This document shows, one piece after another, positions 1 to 55,769 of a stretch of DNA of 64,000 nt. This stretch comes from Microbacterium endophyticum. GTDB taxonomy: Bacteria > Actinomycetota > Actinomycetes > Actinomycetales > Microbacteriaceae. The stretch lies in the NCBI RefSeq assembly GCF_011047135.1, contig NZ_CP049255.1, forward strand, positions 1,178,001-1,242,000, in the 5' to 3' direction. The position numbers and the translations under genes were made by a program. Positions within the stretch are counted from its first letter, which is position 1; each line of letters opens with the position of its first letter. The notes below the pieces were generated by a model, which was not told where the DNA came from, made no database searches, and worked only from the letters and a program-made list of their open reading frames with translations.

Positions 1-182
1 ACACCGAGAGCGCCATATTCGGCATCCACGAGGCTGACGACCGCATCGACGATGTGGCGAAGAACCTGGTCAAGTTCGAGCCCCTCGACCACGGTGTGGT
101 TGGCTGCGAGCAGGCGGAGCGAATCAGCATCCATCTCGCCCTCTCCCCCACCGTCAGTGCCCGAGTCTACGGTTGCTTTCAT
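1..182 (-). CDS. Sensor histidine kinase, DevS/DosT-like, N-terminal fragment (partial)
   Basis: The reverse strand reads an open frame from an ATG at 182 to the window edge, about 60 codons. After a Gly-rich start it gives ...SLRLLAANHTVVEGLELDQV and then LRHIVDAVVSLVDAEYGALG. This is the entry to the first GAF domain of DevS/DosT-type oxygen and redox sensor kinases, whose usual wording is LLxAxxxVxxxLELxxVLrrIV..LvdArYGALGV. The histidine kinase part lies outside the window. The gene is divergent from a universal stress protein gene across a short region with a DosR-like box, which is the usual company of this sensor family. The fragment is short, but the motif is distinctive. Confidence 0.75.
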   Translation of the reverse strand, partial: MKATVDSGTDGGGEGEMDADSLRLLAANHTVVEGLELDQVLRHIVDAVVSLVDAEYGALG

Positions 183-207
183 GTTTTAGGACTTTCGGCA
201 CTGATCG
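183..207. promoter_or_regulatory. DosR/DevR-like box in divergent promoter
   Basis: TTAGGACTTTCGGCACTGA (about 186-204) resembles the imperfect palindrome bound by DevR/DosR response regulators (TTSGGGACTWWAGTCCCSAA). By eye it matches 12 of 20 positions and keeps the GGACT-TT-cGgCaC core. It sits between the DevS-like kinase and the universal stress protein gene, both typical DosR-regulon members. Binding is inferred from the motif and the neighbours only. Confidence 0.5.
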
Positions 208-259
208 GATGCCTGATCTCGGCGAAAGATGAGCAGTAACAAGATCGGGGGCGACGGCA

Positions 260-1021
260 GTGTGCACACGTTACGTGGTCGCAGTCAATGACACTCGACC
301 TTCTGAGAACGCGCTGGCTTGGGCGACATCACGAGCCGCGAGGACCCGTGTGCCCGTCGTCACGGTGCGTGTTGATCCCGGAACCGGTTCCTCCCAATCA
401 TCGGGCCACCAGGAGATCGTGTTGCACGGTCCGATCTCTCACACGCTGGCAGGCTTCGCTCAGAGAGATGACCTGCTTGTCATCGGCACGGGAAAGACGG
501 GCTTCATCCATGCGCGCGGGTACGGGGCGCGCGGCATCCAGATCGCCTCGAGCACTCGAAGCAGCGTCGCTGTCGTTCCCGATGTCGACCTGCGTTTTCG
601 CGCCGGTGTCATCGCTGGCATCGACCACGCCGAGACAGCCGAACTCGTGGCATCCGTCGCGGGTGCCGAAGCTGCAGCGCTCGGCGAACCACTACAACTT
701 ATTCACTCGTCGTTCGGGCGCGAGTCAGCGAAAGCCCCTTCTGAACTCGCAACCGCAGCGGCAACCGTCAAGAACCGTTGGCCTGGCCTTGTCGTACGCA
801 CGCGGATAACAGCGCGTCCGCCAGCCGAAGCGCTCCTCGATGCCTCTCGAAACGCGACGATTCTGGTTCTCGGGCCCGGCTGTTCTCAGCCCGACTCGCC
901 GTTTGCTCTCGTGATCCACGACGTGCTCGTCAATATCAATGCGCCCGTCCTGATTGCGCGCATGGCCTTCGCGAGCGCAGAACCTCCCGCCGATCGGCTC
1001 ACACTCTCCACTAAGGAATGA
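260..1021 (+). CDS. Universal stress protein, tandem UspA domains
   Basis: A 253-residue protein with two UspA-like halves. The first half (about 1-110) starts YVVAVNDTRPSENALAWA and ends with a GTGKTGF...G stretch resembling the nucleotide-binding loop of the family, followed by SSVAVVPD. The second half starts around residue 115 (VIAGIDHAETAELVASVAG) and ends ILVLGPG...NINAPVLIAR. A GTG start at 260 is supported by a G-rich Shine-Dalgarno sequence (GGGGG, about 8 nt upstream). Usp proteins are cytoplasmic and bind ATP or act in dormancy and hypoxia stress. The DosR-like box upstream and the neighbouring DevS-like kinase suggest low-oxygen or redox control. Confidence 0.85.
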   Translation: MCTRYVVAVNDTRPSENALAWATSRAARTRVPVVTVRVDPGTGSSQSSGHQEIVLHGPISHTLAGFAQRDDLLVIGTGKTGFIHARGYGARGIQIASSTRSSVAVVPDVDLRFRAGVIAGIDHAETAELVASVAGAEAAALGEPLQLIHSSFGRESAKAPSELATAAATVKNRWPGLVVRTRITARPPAEALLDASRNATILVLGPGCSQPDSPFALVIHDVLVNINAPVLIARMAFASAEPPADRLTLSTKE

Positions 1022-1025
1022 ACAC

Positions 1026-1517
1026 ATGGACTGGCTATTTAACGGACTTCCGATTCACGTTCTGCTCGTCCACTTCGTGGTGATCGTCGTGCCCCTCACA
1101 GCCATCTGTCTCGTACTTTCGACGTTCTGGCCTGCGGCTCGGCGCCGACTGGGCCTCGTGACTCCGATCTTGGCTCTCGTGGCACTCATCAGCGTGCCGA
1201 TCACGACACAGGCGGGGGAAGCGCTCGAAGAGCAGGTCTCTGAAACAGCGCTGAGCGAGTTGCACACCGAGCTCGGAGATACCCTCCTGCCCTGGGCAAT
1301 TGCACTATTCATCATCGCCGCGCTGCAGTGGTTCTGGTTTGCGTTCTGCACGGGTGATGGTCGATATGCGAAGCAATTCACATCGAAGACGATCCGCACG
1401 ACGATCACCATGGCGCTAAGCATCGCCGTGATCGCCGTCGCGATCGGGTCGGTCGTGGTCGTCGTGATCATCGGCGAGTCGGGTGCCCGAGCAGTGTGGG
1501 ACTCCAAACTCGGTTAG
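1026..1517 (+). CDS. DUF2231 family four-helix membrane protein
   Basis: 163 residues. The chosen ATG at 1026 lies about 8 nt after an AAGGA Shine-Dalgarno sequence and gives MDWLFNGLPIHVLLVHF, the usual opening of DUF2231 membrane proteins (short amphipathic start, then an His-containing LPIH/LVH motif). Four hydrophobic segments are visible at about residues 10-32, 40-62, 84-105 and 120-147. Function is unknown; some relatives are described as possible haem-containing or redox membrane proteins because of the conserved histidines, which is inference here. It starts 5 nt after the Usp stop codon, so the two genes are probably co-transcribed and share the same stress control. Confidence 0.75.
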   Translation: MDWLFNGLPIHVLLVHFVVIVVPLTAICLVLSTFWPAARRRLGLVTPILALVALISVPITTQAGEALEEQVSETALSELHTELGDTLLPWAIALFIIAALQWFWFAFCTGDGRYAKQFTSKTIRTTITMALSIAVIAVAIGSVVVVVIIGESGARAVWDSKLG

Positions 1518-1535
1518 GCCCGAGGGGCTGTGTTC

Positions 1536-2750
1536 TCAATTCGGCGCGGGAACTCGGTCCAATCGACCGGCGACGAGGCCGCCCGCGAGCGCAAAAATGA
1601 GTAGCGCTGCGAGCACCACGTACAGCGATACGACCCAATCACCCGTCTGCTCGTGAAGAGCCCCAACGACTGTCGGCCCCATCGCCGCGATGCCGTATCC
1701 GATCATCTGGGCGAGTCCTGAGCGCCCCGCGATGACGCGCTGTCCGCCGCCGAGCCCGGCGATCATGATGAAAATGATGGTGAGCCCGCCGCCCTGCGCA
1801 ACACCGCCGAGTAAGCACCACAAGAGCCAACCCTGCGGGAAGAACAGAAACCCGAGCGGGACCGAAACCCAGGCCGCGGCTACAGCGACGACGGCGACGA
1901 GTGTGGAGCCCCGCGTCGTGAGCAGCGGAACAAGGAGCGCACCGGCAATACCTGCAACCTGGAAAATGCCCGCTATCGCACCCGCGGCTTCTACGCCGAA
2001 ACCGCTGTCCGTCAACAGTGTCGGCAGCCATGCCGTCATCGCGTAAAAAGAGAACGCCTGACCGGCGAAGGCCGCGCCCAAGATCCATGTCGTGCCGTGC
2101 TTTGCGGCAGATCCCGCCGCGGTTGCAGGACTAGCATCCACGCGTCGACGCTCGGGGACGACAGCCCCGCGGATTCCGTGGAGTGCAATCCAGGTGGCGA
2201 GCGCTGCCACACCGAACGCAACGCTCGCGGCGAGGGCCACGCGCCATCCGAGTGCGCCGGCAAGCGGCGCTGTCGACACTGTGACGGTCATCGTGCCGAT
2301 ATTCAAAGACGCTGTGAACACTCCGGTCATGGTGTGCACACGGTTCGGCGGAAAGTCACGAGCGATGATGACCGGCATCACGACATTGCCGATCGTCAAA
2401 AAGACGCCGATGATCGCAGTTCCGAGAAGTGCCGCTGCCAGCTCTCCGGAAGAGCGGATAACGCACCCCACCACGGCGCCCGCAAGGCTCAGAGTGAGGG
2501 CGAAGTTCGCGCCACCACGGCGAACGATGGCGACGCCGAGCGGTGCACAAATAGCGAACGCGAGCACCGGGACGCTGGTGAGTAATCCAAGCACTGTCGC
2601 ATTGATACCGAGCTGCTGCTCGACGACGCGCGCGACCGGAGCGACGGCGACGACAGGGCTTCGCAGCATCGCCGCAGTGAAGACGATCGCTGCGAGAATC
2701 CAGATGACGCGACTGCGTGAATGATCCGCGCGAGGCAAAGAGGACGCCAT
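1536..2750 (-). CDS. MFS transporter, CynX/NimT (cyanate permease-like) family
   Basis: 404 residues with about 12 predicted membrane helices. The N-terminal TAAMLRSPVVAVAPVARVVEQQLGI segment and the pattern of a short loop then GLLTSVPVLAFAICAPLGV are typical of the CynX/NimT branch (cyanate and nitroimidazole transport relatives), which often carries small anions or drug-like compounds. It is the last gene of a minus-strand run that includes a second MFS transporter (stop at 2760, 10 nt upstream of this start), a glycosyltransferase and a deacetylase/methyltransferase. It may therefore export or import a product of that operon; the substrate cannot be read from the sequence. Confidence 0.85.
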   Translation of the reverse strand: MASSLPRADHSRSRVIWILAAIVFTAAMLRSPVVAVAPVARVVEQQLGINATVLGLLTSVPVLAFAICAPLGVAIVRRGGANFALTLSLAGAVVGCVIRSSGELAAALLGTAIIGVFLTIGNVVMPVIIARDFPPNRVHTMTGVFTASLNIGTMTVTVSTAPLAGALGWRVALAASVAFGVAALATWIALHGIRGAVVPERRRVDASPATAAGSAAKHGTTWILGAAFAGQAFSFYAMTAWLPTLLTDSGFGVEAAGAIAGIFQVAGIAGALLVPLLTTRGSTLVAVVAVAAAWVSVPLGFLFFPQGWLLWCLLGGVAQGGGLTIIFIMIAGLGGGQRVIAGRSGLAQMIGYGIAAMGPTVVGALHEQTGDWVVSLYVVLAALLIFALAGGLVAGRLDRVPAPN

Positions 2751-2759
2751 GTGGGAACG

Positions 2760-4223
2760 TCAGTCCGTGGCCGTTTCGACAGCGCTGGGCTTGCGGATCA
2801 AGAACGAGAGTCCGATGATCGCCAACGACAGGACGGCAGCCAATAACAGCGCATAGTGCGCGCCCTGATCAACGGCGAGTGAAGCTGACCCGCCCCCCGA
2901 GCGCACCGATGTACCGACCATCGTGTACACCACGATAAAAAGAGAGGTACCGGCAGCTCCAGCGATCTGCTGCGCGGTGCCGATGCCGGCGCTGGCGTAG
3001 GGATAGAACTGATCTTTCACCGAACTCAGTGCGACGGTGAACAGCGGGGCGAAGAGCAGAGCGAGACCGGCACAAAGCACGAGGTAGAGGCCGAGCACGG
3101 TTCCGAAGGTTGCGTGCGCCGTGAGCATCAACGCCATCATCCACAACGCGACCGAGGTGATGATGGCTCCGGGGATCACAAGTGGCCGTGGGCCAATCTT
3201 GTCGAACGCCAGTCCAACGAATGGGCCGGCCAGACCCATGAGAAGGCCCCCAGGCAGAACTATCAGTCCGGACTGGAGGGGGCTGAGCCCGAGGCCATCC
3301 TGAATGTACAGCGGCAAAAGCGTCAGCGATCCGAACAGGATCGCATTCATGACCGCCATCATAATGAGCGCCCGAGTGAAGGCTGATGATGCGAAGATTC
3401 GCAGATCGATGAGGGCCTCGTTGGTGCGCTGAAGATACAGCTGGCGGAATACAAAGGCTGCGAGCGAAAGAGCGCCGACGAGCACCGGGATCAGGGGCGA
3501 CATCGTCGAAACACCCTTCGTTTCGTTGCCGAACTCAGACAAGCCATAGATCAGCCCACCGAACGCTAACACCGATAGCAACACGGAGAGGATGTCGATA
3601 CGCACGCGCTCTGGTTCGCTGACATTCGTCATCCGCCAAATACCCAGCACGAGCGCCAGCACTCCGAACGGGAAGATGATGATGAACAGCGCCTGCCACG
3701 GCAGCGAGTTCACGATAATCCCGCCGAGTAGCGGCCCCATCACCGGCGCCACCGACATGACGATCGTGATGGTTCCCATCATTCGACCACGGCGGCCTAC
3801 CGGCACCACCGTCATAATGGTTGTCATCAGCAGCGGCGTCATGACTCCCGTGCCGGCGGCCTGAAGTACTCGACCCGCAAGCAACATGCCGAACACGGGC
3901 GCAACCGCCGCTACCAGCGTGCCAACGACGAAAAGGGTCATCGCACCGATGAATACCGCACGCGTCGTAAAGCGTTTCATGAGGAAGCCGGTGAGCGGAA
4001 TGACCACTGCCATCGTCAGCATGTAAGCGGTCACGAGCCATTGCGCTACGGATGCACCGATCTTGAGGTCATCCATGATCCGCGGCAGGGCAACACCGAC
4101 GAGGGTTTCGTTGAGCATGACAACGAATGCCGAGATCAGCAGCAGGCCGATCACACGGCGGTGTGCTGCCGTAATTCCGGTTGAGTCCTGCTCGACGGGG
4201 ACTTCACTAGTGGGGTTCGACAC
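2760..4223 (-). CDS. DHA2-family MFS multidrug-type exporter (14 TM)
   Basis: 487 residues from the GTG at 4223, which gives MSNPTSEVPVEQDS before the first helix; a longer frame upstream (to 4289) would add Cys/Arg-rich sequence unlike the family and overlap the glycosyltransferase gene. Family marks are LNETLVGVALPRIMDDL in helix 1, the GRVLQAAGTGVMTPLL motif, and the motif-C-like GPLLGGIIVNSLPWQALFII segment, as in EmrB/QacA exporters with 14 helices. It lies 22 nt after the GT2 gene and is probably part of the same transcript, which suggests export of a product or self-protection. No clear Shine-Dalgarno sequence is visible at the GTG. Confidence 0.85.
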   Translation of the reverse strand: MSNPTSEVPVEQDSTGITAAHRRVIGLLLISAFVVMLNETLVGVALPRIMDDLKIGASVAQWLVTAYMLTMAVVIPLTGFLMKRFTTRAVFIGAMTLFVVGTLVAAVAPVFGMLLAGRVLQAAGTGVMTPLLMTTIMTVVPVGRRGRMMGTITIVMSVAPVMGPLLGGIIVNSLPWQALFIIIFPFGVLALVLGIWRMTNVSEPERVRIDILSVLLSVLAFGGLIYGLSEFGNETKGVSTMSPLIPVLVGALSLAAFVFRQLYLQRTNEALIDLRIFASSAFTRALIMMAVMNAILFGSLTLLPLYIQDGLGLSPLQSGLIVLPGGLLMGLAGPFVGLAFDKIGPRPLVIPGAIITSVALWMMALMLTAHATFGTVLGLYLVLCAGLALLFAPLFTVALSSVKDQFYPYASAGIGTAQQIAGAAGTSLFIVVYTMVGTSVRSGGGSASLAVDQGAHYALLLAAVLSLAIIGLSFLIRKPSAVETATD

Positions 4224-4245
4224 GGGGCCAGTATGGCAGCGTGTG

Positions 4246-4938
4246 TCACAACATCTTTGCCTGATCGCGAAGATAGCCCGCGTATCCACCGGGTGTGCGG
4301 CCCGTGAATCGACCCGAAGTGCTGACTTCGGCAGTATCGCTTGCCGTTACGGTGGCGCCGACCTGTCGGCACGATTCCACCAGCCGCACATCTTCGTGCT
4401 CGGCCGACCCGCTAAACCCCCGCGCTGCAAGATAGGTGCTGGCACGCACTCCGAGGTTTGCCCCGTGCACATGGCCGTTGGGCGCACCCGGAAGATGTGT
4501 GCGCAGCCACAGATCTTGATGATTGGGAGCGAGGTCGTTGAAGTCGGGGCGTACCGTGCCGACGACGACATCTGTGCCGGATGCCGCGAGCTCGAGCTGA
4601 GTCGTCAGCCAATTCTTCGGCACAGTTGAATCCGCATCGGTGTTTGCAATCCAGATCTGACGCGAAGGCAGCCCGGAAAACACCGAAAGCGCCGAAGCGA
4701 TACCGCGGGCGCGAGCGACGCCCACCGCGTTCGCCGCGATACTCATCGTCACGAACGGGTGCTGCGCAGCGATATCGGCCGAGCCGTCGCTGCAGGCGTC
4801 GAGCACGACTCGGACTTCGCACGGGATGTCGACACTGCTGATCGCCGTTTCAATCGAGTCGAGGCACGCAGCGAGAAGCATCTCTTCGTCGTGCACTGGC
4901 ACGACGATAACGGCAGCACGTATTCTGCCGAGGCTCAT
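4246..4938 (-). CDS. Family 2 glycosyltransferase
   Basis: 230 residues with a GT-A fold pattern. IVVPVHDEEMLLAACLDSI at the N-terminus is the nucleotide-sugar entry motif, VVLDACSDGSAD follows, and TDADSTVP carries the DxD metal and nucleotide-diphosphate site. HGANLGVRASTYLAARGF is the usual acceptor-side motif of GT2 enzymes, followed by EHEDVRLV. It has no membrane helices, so it probably works in the cytoplasm. Its start overlaps the upstream deacetylase/methyltransferase stop as ATGA (4935-4938), implying translational coupling. Context suggests that it transfers a sugar onto, or from, the molecule processed by the two enzymes upstream. Confidence 0.88.
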   Translation of the reverse strand: MSLGRIRAAVIVVPVHDEEMLLAACLDSIETAISSVDIPCEVRVVLDACSDGSADIAAQHPFVTMSIAANAVGVARARGIASALSVFSGLPSRQIWIANTDADSTVPKNWLTTQLELAASGTDVVVGTVRPDFNDLAPNHQDLWLRTHLPGAPNGHVHGANLGVRASTYLAARGFSGSAEHEDVRLVESCRQVGATVTASDTAEVSTSGRFTGRTPGGYAGYLRDQAKML

Positions 4939-6305
4939 TGCAGCCCCTCCCGCTGGGCCACAGACACGACGGGCCGGCGAGCGAAGACCTCAATGACAAA
5001 GTCTTGCTCTTCATGGATGGCGATGACACCCCAGCCTTCGACGGACCTGAGGGCAGCGTGCACTTCATTGCCATTCAACGGATACTCATCCACTGGATGA
5101 CGCCAATGACAGGCGACGAGGCATCCATCGCCTGTCATCGTGGCGTCGATGAGCGCAATCGTCTTCGCGAGGTCGCGATGCGATAGGTAATAGCCCACTT
5201 CCGAAAAGATGATCGTGTCGAAATCACCGTCTGGCCACTGTTCAGGCACGGCGCTTTGGCGCAGGGTGACGTTGGGCCGCTCAGCGAGTCGAGAAGTTGC
5301 CGTATCGATGGCGGTGGCGGATGCATCGAGCGCGAGAACCTCGTCTGCCCGCGCTGACAGTTCCGCCGTGATCAAGCCCGTTGAACAACCAACTTCTAGC
5401 ACTCTCCCGAGGTTCCGCACCGGAAGGCTTGCCATCAGTAGTGCACGTTTACGCTCCTCGTACCAGCGCGTCTCAAACCCCCACGGATCGGCATGCCGAG
5501 CATAGAACCGCTCGAACCAATCAGCAGCAAGCGTCTCGCCGTCGGTTTTCGAAGCCTCGACGAAGAAGAGCTCGGTGTGCCGCTCGAAGTGCGCGTGCAT
5601 CGACGCAGACAGAATCGGCTCGTCCCCTGGCGCCTCCGACAGTGACTGCACCTGTGACTGGTGCGCGCGGAGCGCTCGGCCCTTCGCCGCACGCTGCCCG
5701 GACGTTAGCGCAAGCATTCGGCCGGCATCCCAAGGCACGTCGTCGGGGCGCCCCCAATGCCACAACCAAATCGGATAGCCGAGATGAGGGATGCCGCGAA
5801 CCTGTGCGACCCGCGACGCACAGTCCGCAGTCACCCGGTGGTCTCTGTGCCCGTCGCCAGACCAGGGGGCGACGATCACGCTCTCCCCCGAACTCTGCGG
5901 CAACTGCTCTATAGCCGAGAGCAACGCCGCGGCGAGTGCTGTCGCATTCTCGCGAAGCTCTCCATCGGGAAGCCCCAAAAAGTGCACGCGAGCGGTGGGG
6001 GCGAGAACACGCACTGCGCTGAGCACCTCTTGCCTTCTCAGCGCAGCTAAGCGCGCAGGGGTGTGAGATGGCGAGTTCGGATGGGATGCCTCGCCGTCGG
6101 TTGCGACGATGACCGTCACCGCACTCTTGTTCTCATATGCCCAACGAATGAGACCTCCCGCGCCGAGAGTCTCGTCATCGGGGTGCGCTGCCACGACGAT
6201 CAGCTGCTTGATGCTCAAGTCGAGCGGCTGAACGCTGCTGATTCGGTCATCCGCCTGCCAGATAGCTTCCGGCGTGCCGGCGGCGAGGTGGTCGAAGCTC
6301 ACCAT
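4935..6305 (-). CDS. Fused PIG-L deacetylase and NodS-like SAM methyltransferase
   Basis: 456 residues with two catalytic domains. Residues about 30-230 form a PIG-L/LmbE zinc deacetylase: VVAAHPDDETLGAGG carries the AHPDDE metal motif, and GDGHRDHRVT the second His site. Residues about 255-440 form a class I methyltransferase: VLEVGCSTGLITAEL is the SAM motif I, and FDTIIFSEVGYYL matches the NodS-type motif IV. PIG-L enzymes remove acetyl groups from N-acetylglucosamine-type substrates, and NodS methylates the exposed amine in Nod-factor synthesis, so sequential N-deacetylation and N-methylation of one amino sugar is a reasonable inference. The start overlaps the upstream acyl-CoA dehydrogenase gene by 7 nt and the end overlaps the GT2 gene by 4 nt. 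Confidence 0.88.
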   Translation of the reverse strand: MVSFDHLAAGTPEAIWQADDRISSVQPLDLSIKQLIVVAAHPDDETLGAGGLIRWAYENKSAVTVIVATDGEASHPNSPSHTPARLAALRRQEVLSAVRVLAPTARVHFLGLPDGELRENATALAAALLSAIEQLPQSSGESVIVAPWSGDGHRDHRVTADCASRVAQVRGIPHLGYPIWLWHWGRPDDVPWDAGRMLALTSGQRAAKGRALRAHQSQVQSLSEAPGDEPILSASMHAHFERHTELFFVEASKTDGETLAADWFERFYARHADPWGFETRWYEERKRALLMASLPVRNLGRVLEVGCSTGLITAELSARADEVLALDASATAIDTATSRLAERPNVTLRQSAVPEQWPDGDFDTIIFSEVGYYLSHRDLAKTIALIDATMTGDGCLVACHWRHPVDEYPLNGNEVHAALRSVEGWGVIAIHEEQDFVIEVFARRPVVSVAQREGLQ

Positions 6306-7372
6306 GCTGCACGGGGTGCAGCAACGATCTCGCGACCGATCTTCGCGACGTCACGGAGGCCGTGGTGCTGACGCAAATAGAGGTGCAAACCCGCAACCTG
6401 GCGCGCATACGCCTCGTCAGCGACGAGCGGCGCGGGGCCGAGCGCTGAATCTGCTTCTCTCAGGGTAAGGGCCGCGGCATCCGCGACGACCGACCGAACG
6501 CGCTCCGCGAGCAGGCGGTTTCCAACTCCTGCCGATGTGCCTTCGTCTACGAGAGTTGCAGCTTCCGAGAGAACAGCACGGGCAGCCCACAGCGCTGCAT
6601 CGACTCGACCCAGGTGGACCAGCGCGAGCTGGTCGGAGTGAGCGGGCCGCGCCGCATCGAGTAGTCGTGCCGCGACTCCGACTGCAGCTCCCCACCAGCA
6701 CGCAGCCACCGACATTGCGCCCCAGGTGAATCCCGAGCGTGAGAGGTACCACCCGGCGTTCCCCACTGGGACTGCCGGAACACCATCAAAGTCGACTGGC
6801 GCGCTGACGACATCGGGCAGGCCACGCGCCACCCAGGGCCCTGGATGGTGCTGCACGCCCGGCTCGCGGAGGTCGACAGCGAAAAGCCCACGATTGCCGT
6901 CACCAACATATGCCGTCACCAGCGCGTGCGAGAGGTGAGCGGCGAGTGAACACCAGGGCTTCGTTCCCGAAAGAGTCCAGCCGCGGGATGTCTCTCGCGC
7001 ATCGACGCGCACACCATCGGCCTCGGCAGCGAAAACACCCCAGCTTGATCCTTCGCCGGCGTTCAAAACCGCCATGTCGTCCCGCTGCGATATGCCGCCC
7101 GCCTGTGCCTGCGCGAGAATACCCAGCGCGTCGAGGTGTGGTTCGAGCATTCGCGCCGCGGACACATCGTACTCAGCGGTCGCTGCGAGCAGCTCCCATG
7201 CCTCCGCGGTGCTGCCTTCCCCCACGCGCGGCGAACGGTTGATCACGTCCACGCACCAGTGCAGCGTTGCCTCGACGTCGCGCCCGAAACCGTGGATGCC
7301 GCGCGCGGCAGCGATCGCAGACGCGACATGATCGCTCTGGCGCGCACCAGGAGCTAACATCGCGCGACTCAT
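6299..7372 (-). CDS. Acyl-CoA dehydrogenase-like flavoprotein in glycosyltransferase operon
   Basis: 357 residues resembling acyl-CoA dehydrogenases: a helical N-terminal domain, a middle beta domain with WTLSGTKPWCSLAAHLSHALV, and a C-terminal helical domain ending YLRQHHGLRDVAKIGREIV, which resembles the terminal FAD-side motif of short divergent members. It is shorter than classical enzymes (about 380), and the catalytic Glu cannot be placed by eye, so a monooxygenase or other oxidase role is possible. The ATG at 7372 overlaps the stop of a 15-codon leader ORF (ATGA), and the gene overlaps the next by 7 nt. It is the first enzyme of the deacetylase/methyltransferase/glycosyltransferase/exporter operon. 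Confidence 0.8.
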   Translation of the reverse strand: MSRAMLAPGARQSDHVASAIAAARGIHGFGRDVEATLHWCVDVINRSPRVGEGSTAEAWELLAATAEYDVSAARMLEPHLDALGILAQAQAGGISQRDDMAVLNAGEGSSWGVFAAEADGVRVDARETSRGWTLSGTKPWCSLAAHLSHALVTAYVGDGNRGLFAVDLREPGVQHHPGPWVARGLPDVVSAPVDFDGVPAVPVGNAGWYLSRSGFTWGAMSVAACWWGAAVGVAARLLDAARPAHSDQLALVHLGRVDAALWAARAVLSEAATLVDEGTSAGVGNRLLAERVRSVVADAAALTLREADSALGPAPLVADEAYARQVAGLHLYLRQHHGLRDVAKIGREIVAAPRAAW

Positions 7373-7416
7373 GCGCCATCGACTCGCGTCTCGTGCTTCG
7401 CCAGCGTTCTCGCCAT
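7369..7416 (-). CDS. 15-codon leader ORF coupled to acyl-CoA dehydrogenase gene
   Basis: Starting at the ATG at 7416 the reverse strand encodes MARTLAKHETRVDGA and stops at TGA 7371-7369. That stop overlaps the ATG of the downstream gene (ATGA). The start has a near-perfect Shine-Dalgarno sequence (GGAGGT, 6 nt before ATG), far better than the start at 7372 itself. This looks like a translated leader that delivers ribosomes to the flavoprotein gene by termination-reinitiation. Alternatively, a frameshift separates the true N-terminus from the main frame; the exact stop/start overlap favours coupling. Confidence 0.5.
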   Translation of the reverse strand: MARTLAKHETRVDGA

Positions 7417-7421
7417 GATTG

Positions 7422-7437
7422 ACCTCCAGGTGGAGGC
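7422..7437 (-). promoter_or_regulatory. Hairpin sequestering the leader Shine-Dalgarno sequence
   Basis: In the minus-strand transcript CCUCC (7436-7432) faces GGAGG (7427-7423) across a four-base ACCU loop, and a G-U pair extends the stem. The 3' arm is the Shine-Dalgarno sequence of the 15-codon leader ORF. Folding would hide the ribosome site, so opening of the hairpin by a protein, RNA or ligand could control the whole operon. The palindrome is directly visible; the regulatory role is inferred. Confidence 0.45.
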
Positions 7438-7499
7438 TATGGCCCTGTTAACCGCAAGAAGTGGGACTTGACAAACGAAATCAAATCCACGACCGAGTG

Positions 7500-7823
7500 C
7501 TACTCGGGTTCAGGAAGAAGCCGAAACGCTCCACTGTTCTTACTGGCCGCACCAGCCAGAATCGCGATCCACTTCGGGTTGAGAGGTTTCGCGCGCGGCT
7601 CGTCGTAGCTGAAATAGAGCGGCGTACTTTTAGATATCCACACGGTGCCGTGAAGACCAGGAGTCGGGAGCGCTGCATCGCCATCGACATCCGGCTCGTT
7701 GTCCCAGCTGAAACTGAAGCTCTCATCACGCCGGAGCTTGCTGAGCATCACCGACTGCAGATGGTACAAGCCCCAATCAGCGATCTCGATCGCCGGCGCA
7801 ACGCCGTAGATTAACTGCCCCAT
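7500..7823 (-). CDS. DUF7882-type small protein of Microbacteriaceae
   Basis: 107 residues opening MGQLIYGVAPAIEIADWGL and containing SKLRRDESFSFSW, followed by a HGTVWISKSTPLYFSY strand and a LNPKWIAIL...LLPEPE end. This order is that of a family that is very common, in several paralogues per genome, in Microbacteriaceae and is sometimes mislabelled ATP-dependent DNA ligase. There are no catalytic ligase motifs, membrane segments or signal peptide. Function is unknown. The gene stands alone between two minus-strand operons; no terminator is obvious between it and its neighbours. Confidence 0.75.
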   Translation of the reverse strand: MGQLIYGVAPAIEIADWGLYHLQSVMLSKLRRDESFSFSWDNEPDVDGDAALPTPGLHGTVWISKSTPLYFSYDEPRAKPLNPKWIAILAGAASKNSGAFRLLPEPE

Positions 7824-8002
7824 TGGTACCCCTCGCCGCCGACAGATCGGCAGTCATTTCGCAATGTGTGCGCCCTTCACCGGCAAACGAGAAGCCAAAG
7901 TCGATTCGGCTGCACACTCGCGACCCTACTCGCTCAAGCACGACCCTGCGAGCACGTTTTCGTGGAATCCGTCGCCGAACCTGTGCACGCGCACTGCGGA
8001 AT
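7824..8002. other. Non-coding gap between DUF7882 gene and sugar-kinase gene
   Basis: 179 bp without a supported gene. It must hold the promoter of the minus-strand DUF7882 gene and the 3' untranslated end of the sugar operon. No strong hairpin, repeat or RNA gene is visible. Confidence 0.5.
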
Positions 8003-9199
8003 TTATCCTGAACCCTCACGGAGGTAGAAGGCCGAGAGAAACCCACCCACGAAGCTGTCGCCAAGGCCGATCGTCGTCGGCGACGCGACATCCGCAACCA
8101 CCGCTGCGACTCCCCGGGCATCGGTACGGGTTCGTTCGAGCGTTGCGACGAGGCGCTCACCTCCTCGATGACGAGGTAGCTGCGCGGTCTCTTCGAGGTC
8201 GGATGCGACAAGAGAGTCGCCGAGGCGGTAGCGCGTTGCCGACATCAAAACAGCGTTTTCAAGAGCTTCGCGATATCGGCCAGCATCGGGCCCGACTGCG
8301 ATTGCCCAGAAACGCGTGTGCACGACAAGTGCTGACACGGGAATAAGAGCGTGTGCTTGAGCCAGCGCGGCGCTTACATCTCGCGCATCCAACAGATCGA
8401 CGGAACGACCGACGTACTCCTGCAACTCGTCCTCGTTCATGCCGTACACATCAATGCGCGGGAGCAGCCGAGCGCGAGCCGTCGCAGCCATCTCACGGTG
8501 ATAGAAGCCGGCATCTTCGTAGTACACCAGCGCTTGCGCGGGCAGACGTTCCATCGCCCGCACGAGCTCGTCTAGACGCTCTTCTAGCAACGCGGGATCC
8601 TGCATCGTGTTGAATCCCGAGATCAGAAACGCTCCTGCACCGTCGAGCACATCGGAAAGTTCAGCAGAAATCGCCATCACCCTGTTAGGCGCATCGTTGG
8701 CGAATATCAGTCGGTTCGAAGCTGGAGAAATGACATCACCATCTACAACGCGCACCCTGGCACCGACGGGATACTGCACGATGAGGTGCGGATCGAGGGA
8801 GTCACCATCGGCCGAACAGATCCATGAGATTGCCTGAGGCATGAGCCTGCGCACGTTTTCATCGATACTGACCAAGTGCTGAATCGTGGGAATGCCCAAC
8901 TTTTCGAGCGCGAGACCCGCCCTCACTCCGGTGCCACCGAGCGTTATAGCCTTCGCAAATCTCCCGGCGAATCGCTCCAGCGTCAGCGAGGACTCCACGA
9001 GCCGTTCCCCGCCGCCTCCGGCGGCGATGAACCCGACGATAGTTACGACAAGGGACCGCTCATCAACGACCGGTGCCGTGGTGGTCAACTCATGGCGGCG
9101 AATGCCGTAAGCAAGCGCAAGCTCGCTGAGCACCGCGGCGTCCCAATCGATCTCGTAATCGACGGTGCCGCCAAGTCCAAGCACAAGGTGACCACTCAT
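8003..9199 (-). CDS. Sugar kinase, ribokinase fold, ADP-dependent PFK/GK-like
   Basis: 398 residues. LGGTGVRAGLALEKLGIPT near residue 90 matches the substrate-side GG motif of ribokinase-fold kinases, and SPTTIGLGDSFVGGFLSAF at the C-terminus holds the GxGD catalytic aspartate. The GLGD form instead of GAGD and the length near 400 fit the ADP-dependent phosphofructokinase/glucokinase branch better than typical PfkB enzymes, but this is a reading by eye. The gene follows a class II ketose-bisphosphate aldolase and a sugar ABC transporter, so it probably phosphorylates a keto-sugar phosphate (or the free sugar) to make the aldolase substrate. It is the last gene of the operon. Confidence 0.78.
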   Translation of the reverse strand: MSGHLVLGLGGTVDYEIDWDAAVLSELALAYGIRRHELTTTAPVVDERSLVVTIVGFIAAGGGGERLVESSLTLERFAGRFAKAITLGGTGVRAGLALEKLGIPTIQHLVSIDENVRRLMPQAISWICSADGDSLDPHLIVQYPVGARVRVVDGDVISPASNRLIFANDAPNRVMAISAELSDVLDGAGAFLISGFNTMQDPALLEERLDELVRAMERLPAQALVYYEDAGFYHREMAATARARLLPRIDVYGMNEDELQEYVGRSVDLLDARDVSAALAQAHALIPVSALVVHTRFWAIAVGPDAGRYREALENAVLMSATRYRLGDSLVASDLEETAQLPRHRGGERLVATLERTRTDARGVAAVVADVASPTTIGLGDSFVGGFLSAFYLREGSG

Positions 9200-9229
9200 G
9201 GCAACGATCGCGTCCTCTCTCTGCGAGCC

Positions 9230-10093
9230 CTAGTAGAGCGAAGCCTTGCCGGATGCGCCGAACAGCTCAATCTTCTGCGCTGCGGTGACCTTCATTGCCT
9301 TGATTGGTTCCGGCTGGATCGCGTTGGGTTCGCGAAGTCGTTCGTCGGTGCCGAGAATTTCGCGCATCCGATTGTGGTAGCTCACCTTGATGTCGCTCGA
9401 GATGTTGATCTTGTTGATCCCCAGCGAAACAGCACGCGCCAGCTCGGCATCGGGGTTACTCGACCCACCGTGCAAGACGAGAGGGATGCCAACGGCCGCT
9501 TTGATTTGTTCGAGGAGATCGTGGCGCAACTCGGGGTTTTTGTCCGATGGATATAGCCCGTGCGATGTGCCGATCGCGATCGCGAGACTATCGACACCGG
9601 TCTCCGCGACGAATCGAACCGCATCATCCACATTGGTGTAGATGATCTCGGCCGCGCCGGATTCTCCGTAACTGTCGTTGGCACCGATCGTGCCGAGCTC
9701 GCCCTCCACTTGAATGCCGACTGCGTGCGCCGCCTCGACTACTTTCCGCGTGAGGGCCACGTTTTCGTCAAAAGGCAAAAGCGACGCGTCGATCATCACA
9801 GAGGTGAACCCCGCCTGGATTGCGACAATCATCTGCTCATAGGTTCCGCCGTGGTCCCAGTGGATAGCGACCGGAACACTGGAACGGTGAGCGCGCTCTC
9901 GCATGGCGGCAATGAGATCGGTGGTGATATGCGCCACCTCGTCGGGGTGGATCGCGACGATCACCGGAGCATCCAGCTCTTCGCTGATGTCCATGATTCC
10001 TGTGAACATCGCCCAATCACTGATGTTGAAGGCAGGGATAGCGAAGTTGTTCACGTTCGCGACGTCGAGGATGGATTTGGCGGTATACAGCAC
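9230..10093 (-). CDS. Class II ketose-bisphosphate aldolase (GatY/KbaY/Fba type)
   Basis: 287 residues, the usual length of tagatose- or fructose-bisphosphate aldolases. NNFAIPAFNISDW is the family opening. VAIHWDHGGTYEQM carries the zinc ligand His and catalytic Asp region. SVMIDASLLPFDENV, VEGELGTIG, GTSHGLYP and LVLHGGSSNPD are the remaining zinc and phosphate-binding segments, and INKINISSDIK closes the barrel. The enzyme splits a ketose 1,6-bisphosphate into DHAP and an aldehyde. The start is GTG at 10093 with AGGAGA 9 nt upstream. Its companion kinase and the upstream ABC transporter suggest catabolism of a dedicated imported sugar; the precise sugar is not visible. Confidence 0.9.
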   Translation of the reverse strand: MLYTAKSILDVANVNNFAIPAFNISDWAMFTGIMDISEELDAPVIVAIHPDEVAHITTDLIAAMRERAHRSSVPVAIHWDHGGTYEQMIVAIQAGFTSVMIDASLLPFDENVALTRKVVEAAHAVGIQVEGELGTIGANDSYGESGAAEIIYTNVDDAVRFVAETGVDSLAIAIGTSHGLYPSDKNPELRHDLLEQIKAAVGIPLVLHGGSSNPDAELARAVSLGINKINISSDIKVSYHNRMREILGTDERLREPNAIQPEPIKAMKVTAAQKIELFGASGKASLY

Positions 10094-10144
10094 TGTAGAT
10101 TCTCCTGTTGATTGGGATGGATGTGCCCGGATTGGGTCGTGGTT

Positions 10145-10990
10145 TCAGCTCTTCACAGAGCCCGCAGTGAGGCCGCTCATGAAGTAACGCTGAAAAAAGA
10201 GGAAAAGGACGAGAACGGGGATTGATCCGAGCACGCTCATGGCCATGATTTGGTTCCACTCGTAGGAGTGCTGGCCCATCAGCAGCTGGATCCCGATGGG
10301 CACCGTGCGCATGTCGATGGTTCGCGTGAGGGTCAAAGCGAAGAGGTACTCGTTCCAGGCGATCATGAACGTGTAAATGCCGACGGAGACGATCCCGGGT
10401 ACCGAAATCGGCACGAGAACGCGCCATAGGGCGGTCATCGAACCCGCGCCATCTACGCGTACCGCTTCGTCGAGCTCGCGGGGCAGGGTATTGAAGTATC
10501 CGGTCAGCATGATGATCGCGTACGGAAGCGTGAACACCATGTACGTGAGAATCAGACCTGGATAGGTGTTGTAAAGTCCGAGCGCAACCATGAGACCGAA
10601 GTACGGAATCAGAAGCGTTATCGGTGGGACGGCCTGAACGCTGACGATAACGACGTTGAGCACACGCTTGCCTCGAAACTCGAAGCGGCTGAGAGCATAC
10701 GCGGCCTGGATTGAGATGAGCAACGTCAATAGCGTCACCGCGATCGCGATGACGTAGCTATTGAGAAAGAACCTCATAGTGACCGGATCAGCAAAGATTG
10801 CGACGTATGCATCGAATGAAAACGTCTCGGTGATCAAACGCGGCGGCAGCTCGAAAATCTCAGTATTCGACTTGAACGAGTTCGACAGCATCCACACGAT
10901 CGGGCCTGCAGCAAACATCGCACCGAGCACCAACCCGACGATGAGTGCGGCTTGCGCACTTCGCTTGCGAACGTTGACAGATGTGGACAT
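10145..10990 (-). CDS. Carbohydrate ABC transporter permease, MalG type
   Basis: 281 residues with six hydrophobic segments. The cytoplasmic EAA loop reads DEAVRVDGAGSMTALWRVLVP, which contacts the ATPase of CUT1 transporters. It begins one base after the stop of the other permease gene (10992), so the two are translated as a pair. No ATPase gene is in this operon, as is common in actinobacteria, where a shared MsiK-type ATPase serves many CUT1 systems. Confidence 0.92.
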   Translation of the reverse strand: MSTSVNVRKRSAQAALIVGLVLGAMFAAGPIVWMLSNSFKSNTEIFELPPRLITETFSFDAYVAIFADPVTMRFFLNSYVIAIAVTLLTLLISIQAAYALSRFEFRGKRVLNVVIVSVQAVPPITLLIPYFGLMVALGLYNTYPGLILTYMVFTLPYAIIMLTGYFNTLPRELDEAVRVDGAGSMTALWRVLVPISVPGIVSVGIYTFMIAWNEYLFALTLTRTIDMRTVPIGIQLLMGQHSYEWNQIMAMSVLGSIPVLVLFLFFQRYFMSGLTAGSVKS

Positions 10991-10991
10991 C

Positions 10992-11918
10992 TCAGTCCCT
11001 CGCCTTCTGGTGACGAACGTAGAAAATGGCGAGCACCATTGACATCAATAGGACAAGAACTGCAGAGGTCGCGGCCGACGAGAAGTCATATTTGGCGAAT
11101 GCGAGCTTGTAGGTGAATGTGCTGAGCACCTCTGTTACGTCAATGGGCCCGCCGCCGGTAGTCATCCAGATAAGAGCAAACTGCTGCGAGGTCCAGATCA
11201 TGTCGAGCAAAAGCAGACTGACGATGATGGGACGCAGCTGCGGAATCGTCACGTTCCAAAAACGCTGAGTCGGGCTGGCTCCATCTACTGTCGCCGCCTC
11301 GTACAAATCGCCGGGGATGCCTTGAAGGCCCGCGAGAAGGCTCACCATGAAAAACGGGTATCCCGCCCAAATGTTGATGAACGTCACCGTCCCAAGCGCG
11401 AGCTGGGGCGATGCCAACCACTCGATGTCAGAGTTCAGCAAAAAGTTAATGACGCCGTTGGGTGCCAAGAGCATTCGCCAAAGCACTGCGATCACTGCGA
11501 CGGTAAACAGCCACGGCAGTACATATAACCCGCGGAAGATGGCACGAGGGAAGGCGCCGATGAGCTTGCTATTGAGCATCATCGCGAATCCAAGGCCGAG
11601 CACGAGGTGTGCTGCGACGCTCGTAACGGTGAAAATGACGGTGTTAGACGTCGCTCGCCAAAAGCCCGCGTCGGTGAGGATGGCAACGTAGTTAGCGATG
11701 CCGACAAACTCCCCGGACTTGCCGAGAATGACATTGTCCTGGAACGAGTATCCGACCACCATCACGATCGGCACGATCATCAAAACCAGCAGCAGAGCCA
11801 ACGTCGGAGCCAAAAAGGAATAAGACTCCGTGGTCTTTCGTAGCTGACGTCGTCGGCGTGATGGCGATACGCCGGTAACGATTACCTCTGTGTCGAGGGA
11901 AGGAATTCTGCTGGCCAT
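10992..11918 (-). CDS. Carbohydrate ABC transporter permease, MalF/UgpA type
   Basis: 308 residues with six membrane helices after a basic N-terminal tail (SRRRRQLRKTTESY). The EAA loop is YEAATVDGASPTQRFWNVTIP. It sits downstream of the binding-protein gene and an intervening hairpin, and directly upstream of the MalG-type permease with which it forms the channel. Substrate is unknown but expected to be the sugar processed by the kinase and aldolase of the same operon. Confidence 0.92.
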   Translation of the reverse strand: MASRIPSLDTEVIVTGVSPSRRRRQLRKTTESYSFLAPTLALLLVLMIVPIVMVVGYSFQDNVILGKSGEFVGIANYVAILTDAGFWRATSNTVIFTVTSVAAHLVLGLGFAMMLNSKLIGAFPRAIFRGLYVLPWLFTVAVIAVLWRMLLAPNGVINFLLNSDIEWLASPQLALGTVTFINIWAGYPFFMVSLLAGLQGIPGDLYEAATVDGASPTQRFWNVTIPQLRPIIVSLLLLDMIWTSQQFALIWMTTGGGPIDVTEVLSTFTYKLAFAKYDFSSAATSAVLVLLMSMVLAIFYVRHQKARD

Positions 11919-54650: not shown

Positions 54651-55769
54651 ATGCTCACCCGCCTCTCCCCCGTTCAGGTTCCAGCCCACGAGCAGCACTG
54701 GCTCGACACGGTCGCAAGCCTGGCGAAGACCTTCGCCGAGACCGTCGCCACCGACGATGCCGAAGCACGACTGCCGATAGACCACCTGCGTGCGATCTCG
54801 GCGTCCGGCCTCGACGCTGCGTTCCTTCCCGTCGAGCACGGTGGCGAAGCGCTTTCGTATGCGACCCTCGGACAGGTGGTCCGCACCCTCGCGGCGGCTC
54901 ACCCCGCTGTCGCAACAGTCTGGCTCATGCACATCGGGGCAGCCCACGCGCTCGTGAGCATGTCACCGCCCGACGAAGCGAAGTTCTTCGCTTCGGAGCT
55001 GCGCGCGGGAAAACGCTTCTCGAATGCCCTGTCGGAGCCCGCCGGCGGAAACTTCTTTCTCAATTCGCAGCAGGATGCCGAAGCCGTCGAAAACGGCTGG
55101 GTCTTGGACGGCCGAAAGCTCTTCGTCTCTGGCTCAGAAGCTGCCGACTATCTCTTCCTCAACTCTCGTGTCGATGGCGCCCCAGCGTTCTTCGGTGTGA
55201 CGGTAGACGACACCATCAGCTTTCCGCCGATCGACGAGACCATCGGAATGCGCGCCACGCGTAGCCGGAGCATGACGCTCTCTCGCACTCCTCTGCTCGC
55301 CTCGCGTCTGTGCGCACCGCCCGCCCCTGACTACGCCAACCTCATCACTGTCGGATTTGGCTTCGTCTCGATCGGTATCGCCGAGTCGGCCCTCGATGCG
55401 CTCAAGGACTACGCCGCTTCCCGCCGGTCGCCTCAGGGAACCCTCGCCGAGGCGCAGTGGGTGAAATCAGACGTCGGACCGGTGTGGGCTGAGCTCCGTG
55501 CTGCGCGCCTGATGGCAGAGCAGGTCTCCTGGCTCGCCGACCAGAAGTCACCCGAGGCGATGCCCGCGGCAACTGAGACCAAAATGCTCGCCAACGAAGT
55601 TGCCAAGAAGGCGGCCGCCCTCGCCGTTCGCGTCGGCGGCGGTAGCGGATACCTCGTGCGCTCCCCCATCCAACGCATCTTCCGCGACGCCCAAGCCGGC
55701 GCCCTGATGGCGTATTCAGTCCCGTTCAGCGAAGAGCTGGTCGGCGGCTGGGTACTCGACGCTGACTAA
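54651..55769 (+). CDS. Acyl-CoA dehydrogenase-like flavoprotein in purine operon
   Basis: 372 residues from the ATG at 54651 (GAAAGGA upstream); the frame also runs far upstream through the permease gene, which is a shadow. N-terminal helices, then HPAVATVWLMHIGAAHALVS, the flavin-domain SNALSEPAGGNFFLN, GWVLDGRKLFVSGSEAADYL, and a C-terminal domain with RVGGGSGYLVRSPIQRIFRD and AQAGALMAY. The end resembles ACAD type-2 proteins and group D flavin monooxygenases (DszC/SfnB relatives) more than fatty-acid enzymes. In this operon, oxidation of a heterocycle or an N-alkyl purine is more plausible than beta-oxidation. That reassignment is inference. Confidence 0.82.
   Translation: MLTRLSPVQVPAHEQHWLDTVASLAKTFAETVATDDAEARLPIDHLRAISASGLDAAFLPVEHGGEALSYATLGQVVRTLAAAHPAVATVWLMHIGAAHALVSMSPPDEAKFFASELRAGKRFSNALSEPAGGNFFLNSQQDAEAVENGWVLDGRKLFVSGSEAADYLFLNSRVDGAPAFFGVTVDDTISFPPIDETIGMRATRSRSMTLSRTPLLASRLCAPPAPDYANLITVGFGFVSIGIAESALDALKDYAASRRSPQGTLAEAQWVKSDVGPVWAELRAARLMAEQVSWLADQKSPEAMPAATETKMLANEVAKKAAALAVRVGGGSGYLVRSPIQRIFRDAQAGALMAYSVPFSEELVGGWVLDAD

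Follow-up and report, generated by a model that had tools for sequence, protein, structure and literature searches.

Among the Nod-factor backbone enzymes, NodC is a GT2 glycosyltransferase, NodB a polysaccharide deacetylase and NodS the N-methyltransferase of the deacetylated chitooligosaccharide. In another group of described enzymes, DszC/TdsC and KijD3/ORF36/DnmZ, the acyl-CoA dehydrogenase fold serves a different reaction. Proteins resembling both groups are encoded side by side in a stretch of 64,000 nucleotides (the window) from the genome of Microbacterium endophyticum, which is a single 2.9-Mb contig. An earlier sequence-only reading of this locus had proposed that five genes and a leader form a system for an exported N-methylated amino-sugar or aminoglycoside-like compound. 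The co-inherited enzymes and the methyltransferase of the NodS family were retained from that proposal, whereas the transporters, the export, the aminoglycoside-like product and the plain oxidase were not. The conserved unit is a cassette of three proteins, a flavoprotein, a fusion of PIG-L deacetylase and methyltransferase, and a GT2 glycosyltransferase. There is an even chance that this cassette makes a modified amino-sugar compound that is glycosylated, N-deacetylated, N-methylated and oxidised.

Conservation of the cassette

The coordinates and motifs given earlier for the five genes and the leader proved correct when compared with the open reading frame (ORF) list, Pfam and NCBIfam, all five ORFs being present on the minus strand at 1536-7372. 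The three cassette genes and the domains of the fusion are located as follows (pLDDT, predicted local distance difference test; SAM, S-adenosylmethionine).

6299-7372, minus strand: flavoprotein gene, 357 amino acids; acyl-CoA dehydrogenase fold predicted (pLDDT 92.3), Glu of the YEGT motif absent
4935-6305, minus strand: fusion gene, 456 amino acids; PIG-L N-deacetylase plus NodS-like SAM methyltransferase (Pfam; model pLDDT 90.8)
5811-6200, minus strand: PIG-L part of the fusion, residues 36-165; Pfam PF02585 match
5118-5492, minus strand: NodS-like methyltransferase part of the fusion, residues 272-396; Pfam PF05401, motifs DPWGFETRWYEERK and FDTIIFSEVGYYL
4246-4938, minus strand: GT2 glycosyltransferase gene, 230 amino acids; PF00535, DAD motif at 101-103

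The flavoprotein and fusion genes overlap by 7 bases, and the fusion and GT2 genes by the ATGA that the sequence-only reading had pointed out. The expected co-occurrence was found in two sets of sequences, for fusion and flavoprotein in the first and for all three proteins in the second. In a sample of 150 Microbacteriaceae genomes, searched with limits of 1e-20 for the fusion and 1e-15 for the flavoprotein, both proteins were matched in an identical set of 53 genomes and neither in the other 97 (lists compared by eye). In two of the 53 (G004 and G087) the flavoprotein gene sits between the PIG-L and methyltransferase genes, so that the cassette is rearranged, not separated. The second set consisted of 80 genome_contigs loci, the best 80 of 157 and mostly from Microbacteriaceae and their kin, in which the methyltransferase is adjoined by the flavoprotein gene in 78, by the GT2 gene in 78 and by both in 77; in 77 the two halves of the fusion are read in a single open frame. 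Five loci are exceptions: L107 comes from a contig of 6.2 kb and L108 from one of 3.7 kb, L070 and L094 are split, and in L103 no partner is in place. Both neighbours are adjacent in all 29 family loci retrieved with flanks of about 1.5 kb (the best family matches). The order of the three genes is conserved far beyond chance, and the conserved unit, flavoprotein - PIG-L/methyltransferase - GT2, is smaller than the five genes first claimed.

The fusion itself is not rare in Microbacteriaceae. By hand count, the two halves lie in a single unbroken frame in 45 of the 53 genomes with a match, 11 of which were judged by equal open-frame length; of the other eight, two have a single TGA in frame within the match and six have the halves in different frames. 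The closest relatives found in the searches belong to Microbacterium, M. halimionae being foremost (flavoprotein 80%, methyltransferase half 87%). The cassette is also present in fused form, by transfer or contamination, on a contig (L090) labelled Stenotrophomonas maltophilia, with a methyltransferase 53% identical to that of the window.

The fusion protein and the glycosyltransferase

The single polypeptide joining a PIG-L deacetylase to a class I methyltransferase is real, with both Pfam domains over their cut-offs. The PIG-L half scored 93.7 bits against a cut-off of 28.2. Its HPDDE and HRDH residues are intact, and H41, D44 and H156, which we take to be the zinc ligands, are invariant across 37 aligned rows. 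The methyltransferase half reached 51 bits with PF05401 (NodS), above the Pfam cut-off, and carries the FDTIIFSEVGYYL motif that had been reported for it. The third enzyme, GT2, matched PF00535 with 46.3 bits (cut-off 23.3), and its DxD motif, D101-A102-D103, is invariant in eight aligned rows.

Profile searches of solved structures placed the methyltransferase half closest to 4isc, an uncharacterised protein of Pseudomonas syringae (E 1.1e-61; 41% identity), followed by NodS (3ofj; 1.8e-28, 102.9 bits) and by a phosphomethylethanolamine methyltransferase (70.3 bits). Foldseek with the predicted fusion structure again gave 4isc and NodS on top. The nearest characterised relative is thus NodS, and a grouping with ubiquinone or lipid enzymes, which would have spoken against the sequence-only reading, was not found. 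The NCBIfam model of NodS itself (NF041650) gave the fusion 53.6 bits, far from its cut-off of 300. In a 33-protein tree, 27 cassette proteins were split from four NodS and two trifunctional proteins with support 97/94; this tree was kept unrooted, methyltransferases of the same genome having given very long branches as outgroup. By the ranking of the structures and the split in the tree, the methyltransferase half is a member of the wider NodS family and not NodS itself. The NodS-type label given earlier therefore holds for the family and not for the clade.

The flavoprotein

The predicted structure of the flavoprotein has the acyl-CoA dehydrogenase fold, and its match to PF02770 stays below the cut-off (28.4 vs 33.3 bits). 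In acyl-CoA dehydrogenases the catalytic Glu occupies the YEGT position, some members carrying it elsewhere. At this one compared site the Glu is absent from the window protein, which reads LYLRQ, as against TYEGTES in L207 of the same genome; L206, also of this genome, has IYGGTNE there. When three profiles were searched against solved structures, A5 gave DszC first (1.7e-17), then the acyl-CoA dehydrogenase 2dvl (9.2e-15), with KijD3 at 2.6e-12; A2 gave 5z8t/5gj7 and then KijD3, with DszC at 7.6e-15; and A6 gave 7xp7 first, with DszC at 1.9e-5. Monooxygenases, of the DszC type or another, thus come first with two of the three profiles and not with the third, and dehydrogenases cannot be told from monooxygenases by their Foldseek or VIA ranks. 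Two residues of DszC, S163 and H97, align by hand count with S142 and H79 of the window protein, and KijD3 was crystallised with a dTDP-amino sugar, according to the title of its PDB entry. Because the usual Glu is absent and monooxygenases lead in two of three profiles, the plain acyl-CoA dehydrogenase-like oxidase of the sequence-only reading is unsupported, and a monooxygenase of the DszC/nitrososynthase type seems more likely. Such monooxygenases use O2 and reduced flavin supplied by a reductase; among the window ORFs, no reductase gene belongs to the cassette.

Flavoproteins of Deinococcus (L001, L002 and L120) have some 400 additional N-terminal residues, possibly a glycosidase-like domain. 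One of the 12 proteins aligned gave a weak match to a GH35 model (7e-4), and a PDB sequence search with the extension of L001 returned no match. Elsewhere in the window, an acyl-CoA dehydrogenase domain lies at about 55362-55703 on the plus strand within an open frame of 655 amino acids, among the five PF00441 matches in the genome.

Occurrence beyond the family and the proposed pathway

In a phylum sample, 20 of 198 genomes matched the fusion query at 1e-20, both halves occurring in one stretch only in the genome of M. endophyticum and in G234, a genome of the same order. Among plasmid records, 95 matched the fusion, including a cyanobacterial one (Nostoc, an unannotated record, 90% query coverage). 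In 12 plasmid regions PIG-L and methyltransferase are encoded by separate adjacent genes with the flavoprotein gene just ahead. These regions come from Bradyrhizobium, Sulfitobacter, Pandoraea, Comamonas, Roseomonas, Sphingobium, Novosphingobium, Komagataeibacter, Acinetobacter johnsonii, Kitasatospora, D. gobiensis and D. radiophilus, and the separate-gene form thereby spans Pseudomonadota, Deinococcota and other Actinomycetota. The fusion thus joins proteins whose genes already stayed together. With the flavoprotein as query, 30 plasmid records matched, and by coordinates the methyltransferase adjoins in 14 of the 15 listed, the fifteenth (Comamonas endophytica) standing outside this comparison.

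The deacetylase of these neighbourhoods is exchangeable. In Rubrobacter the gene ahead of the flavoprotein gene encodes a polysaccharide deacetylase (PF01522), and PIG-L is not annotated in 18.5 kb; GT2, NodS-like methyltransferase and polysaccharide deacetylase are found in one chain in Sulfitobacter indolifex and Mesorhizobium. The recurring theme is GT2, an N-deacetylase of either family and a NodS-like methyltransferase. This theme is our main argument for the deacetylated amine as methyl acceptor, which we infer. Several loci depart from the theme. In the retrieved stretch of Paraburkholderia (L145) only methyltransferase and GT2 are annotated, and Roseomonas (L121) has no adjacent glycosyltransferase. 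In D. radiodurans (L120) a helicase gene stands between PIG-L and methyltransferase and the stretch holds no glycosyltransferase, and in Cupriavidus (L128) the PIG-L gene is about 3 kb upstream on the other strand. Four others, Bradyrhizobium, Komagataeibacter, D. gobiensis and D. radiophilus, have their nearest glycosyltransferase gene on the opposite strand.

In the proposed pathway, GT2 would transfer an N-acetylated amino sugar, presumably of the N-acetylglucosamine (GlcNAc) type, to an acceptor; the PIG-L half would strip the acetyl group; and the NodS-like half would methylate the freed amine, the product remaining on the fusion polypeptide or close to it. Oxidation of the product by the flavoprotein, for which a DszC/nitrososynthase-type monooxygenase is favoured, would come next. 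In keeping with this pathway, the structural neighbours of the predicted PIG-L half (Foldseek) include chitobiose deacetylases and the teicoplanin deacetylase. A limited and narrow literature search found no described product for the cassette. It is very unlikely that the cassette stands for a widespread Nod-factor-like chemistry outside symbiosis in which flavin N-oxygenation yields a stress-protective amino sugar of the N-methyl-N-hydroxy or nitrone type.

The same enzymes could act on an N-acylated metabolite that is not a sugar, of the kind met in thiol or amide metabolism, GT2 glycosylating it for storage or detoxification. The thiol enzymes BshB, MshB and Mca are themselves PIG-L members and match weakly, and one structural neighbour of the predicted PIG-L half, LnmX, comes from a natural-product pathway. 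None of the MshB/Mca/BshB thiol-deacetylase models of NCBIfam reached its cut-off, however, the best scoring 40.9 against 195.25, and the methyltransferase of Rubrobacter is accompanied by a deacetylase of a carbohydrate family. A substrate other than a sugar is thus distinctly unlikely.

Alternatively, the cassette would modify a cell-surface or extracellular glycan and not make a small metabolite; the residue that GT2 adds to a polymer, or to a sugar linked to lipid, would then be deacetylated and N-methylated. Sphingobium and Novosphingobium have three more glycosyltransferase genes ahead of the cassette, a glycosyltransferase and a UDP-galactopyranose mutase follow it in D. gobiensis, and polysaccharide genes are neighbours of the trifunctional protein in Sulfitobacter indolifex. 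In the 80 loci, by contrast, a zinc alcohol dehydrogenase (26 loci) is the only non-cassette family present in more than 20, the annotation covering families above that count and antisense and overlapping frames being ignored. We regard the glycan as a rather unlikely target. The alcohol dehydrogenase gene, which is not beside the cassette of the window, directly follows GT2 on the same strand in 20 of the 80 loci (L053, L063, L066, L068, L072, L073, L078, L084-L087, L089, L091, L100, L106, L111, L114, L115, L117 and L118).

The transporter genes

Two genes of the major facilitator superfamily (MFS) follow the cassette of the window.

2760-4289, minus strand: DHA2/EmrB-type MFS transporter gene; neighbour, outside the conserved cassette
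1536-2750, minus strand: CynX/NimT-like MFS transporter gene; neighbour, outside the conserved cassette

Both had been called exporters. The first scored 304 bits with the DHA2/EmrB model of NCBIfam (cut-off 230.2), so that this part of the claim stands; an exporter role of the second is unproven because its likeness to CynX/NimT is below the cut-off (186.2 vs 406). A self-contained system exporting an aminoglycoside-like compound through both MFS proteins would account for their position, since both genes continue the row on the minus strand, overlapping or separated by short gaps, and one is of a drug-efflux type. The five-gene order is kept, loosely, in M. halimionae alone among the 80 loci, the DHA2 gene adjoining GT2 and the CynX-like gene lying about 1.2 kb further on (L040). 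Against such a system, a DHA2 gene lies within 1 kb of GT2 in only this one of the 80 loci and in none of the 29 family loci, whose flanks extend only about 1.5 kb. Moreover, DHA2 homologues (1e-100) occur in 121 of the 150 family genomes, the cassette in 53, and among the 52 other cassette genomes a DHA2 gene is found within 5 kb of the cassette in G003 only, about 2.9 kb from the flavoprotein gene and on the other strand. For these reasons the transporters are neighbours and not members of the cassette, an exported product loses its support, and an aminoglycoside-like compound is not supported either. A dedicated export system is most improbable.

A candidate promoter and the leader

Two further features lie at the upstream end of the cassette.

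7434-7473, minus strand: promoter signature TGTCAAG-N27-TAGCCT; TGTCAAG at 7467-7473, proposed -10 TAGCCT at 7434-7439
7369-7416, minus strand: leader ORF, 15 codons, MARTLAKHETRVDGA; ATGA overlap with the flavoprotein start, read from the sequence

TGTCAAG is present on the sense strand of 26 of 77 upstream regions, on the antisense strand of none and in 41 of 14,088 control windows. A [TG]ANNCT-like hexamer lies 27 bases after it, the 26 copies having A at position 2 in 21, C at position 5 in 20 and T at position 6 in 21. Since the signature was derived by word counts in the same upstream regions where it was later counted, the 26 of 77 are not an independent test, and with loci that are in part closely related the counts are not independent of one another; the constant spacing of 27 bases, the strand bias and the rarity elsewhere are better evidence. 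The TGTCAAG-N27 signature matched once in the window, where 0.01 matches are expected. In 61 pieces of the M. endophyticum genome (1.264 Mb, 43%) the N27-TANNYT form occurred once, at the cassette, a looser form being present in L175, L199 and L203 too. The start codon of L111 and L115 stands 6 bases after the hexamer, as expected of a leaderless transcript. SigB-like, SigH-like and GGGTAT patterns, with matches in 0-2 of 78 upstream regions, were no commoner there than in shuffled sequence, and a sigma-70-type promoter had no match in 1300-8100. TGTCAAG-N27-[TG]ANNCT is proposed as the shared candidate promoter of the cassette, TAGCCT acting as its -10 element.

Across 1.24 Mb of loci, TGTCAAG-N26-28-[TG]ANNCT gave 17 matches, 14 of them at the flavoprotein gene. 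The other three are ahead of a DUF6766 gene (L050:14518) and of small hydrophilic proteins near an ion-channel gene (L057:15113 and L061:14135), whose co-regulation with the cassette through the signature is possible.

Conservation of the leader ORF appears weak. A likeness is seen in a 20-codon ORF of M. halimionae (L040), and among 11 other upstream regions L042, L049 and L050 have an ORF of 16-18 codons ending on the flavoprotein start; those of L042 and L050 are nearly identical, and the three are without clear likeness to the window leader. The short ORFs of the window, L042, L049 and L050 meet the flavoprotein start by ATGA or TGATG, and translational coupling with the flavoprotein is possible.

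Neighbouring genes and a role in stress

A DUF7882 gene (7500-7823, minus strand) lies directly upstream of the candidate promoter and has relatives in L040, L052, L057, L061, L096 and L119. Further upstream on the same strand (8003-11918), what is apparently a sugar-use operon encodes a protein resembling ADP-dependent glucokinase, with a score far below the cut-off, together with a class II aldolase and, judged from their translations, two ATP-binding cassette (ABC) permease-like proteins. Rfam gave no match in window positions 1-10000.

A role in stress survival was considered from 17 annotated plasmid regions that contain cassette genes (about 282 kb), chosen for diversity, two of them from Acinetobacter with near-identical methyltransferases. 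Catalase occurs in 6 of the 17 and genes of GlgE or of trehalose synthesis in 4; five control stretches of 50 kb from five of these plasmids held one catalase and no trehalose genes, the lone control catalase (Sphingobium) grouping with superoxide dismutase, ligD and DUF6766 genes. With single-sequence queries, which may miss short proteins, catalase was found in 3 of the 80 genome_contigs loci, which are rich in Micrococcales, and otsA, otsB, GlgE, Ku, Hsp20, CsbD and PRC-barrel in none. A stress island is thus poorly supported in the clade to which the window belongs, and stress survival is a lead only. Downstream of the transporters, Pfam identified convergent genes for a Usp-family and a DUF2231 membrane protein (260-1517, plus strand).

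Comparison with known systems

The cassette resembles the Nod-factor backbone enzymes in that a GT2, an N-deacetylase and a methyltransferase of the NodS family are encoded together, and its methyltransferase shares the DPW...E and FD...EV(x)YY-type motifs with NodS. It differs in that the deacetylase is PIG-L and is fused to the methyltransferase, a flavoprotein is added, the NodA acyltransferase is missing, and the methyltransferase neither groups within the NodS clade nor reaches the NodS cut-off. While nodA, nodB and nodC do accompany NodS in reference loci, neither an acyltransferase nor a polysaccharide deacetylase is among the genes of 1536-7372. The closest solved structure, 4isc, is a stand-alone chain of 164 residues entitled a putative methyltransferase. 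The flavoprotein shares the fold of DszC/TdsC and KijD3/ORF36/DnmZ at low identity (14-20%) and, unlike them, has no reductase partner in the cassette. The nearest named proteins are those already called 'bifunctional PIG-L family deacetylase/class I SAM-dependent methyltransferase' by NCBI in Microbacterium, which belong to the same fusion family; the entry gives this name only. A unit inherited across several phyla probably makes something useful, and, to judge by its NodS-like branch, the methylation of Nod factors may be one member of a far broader family of amino-sugar modifications.

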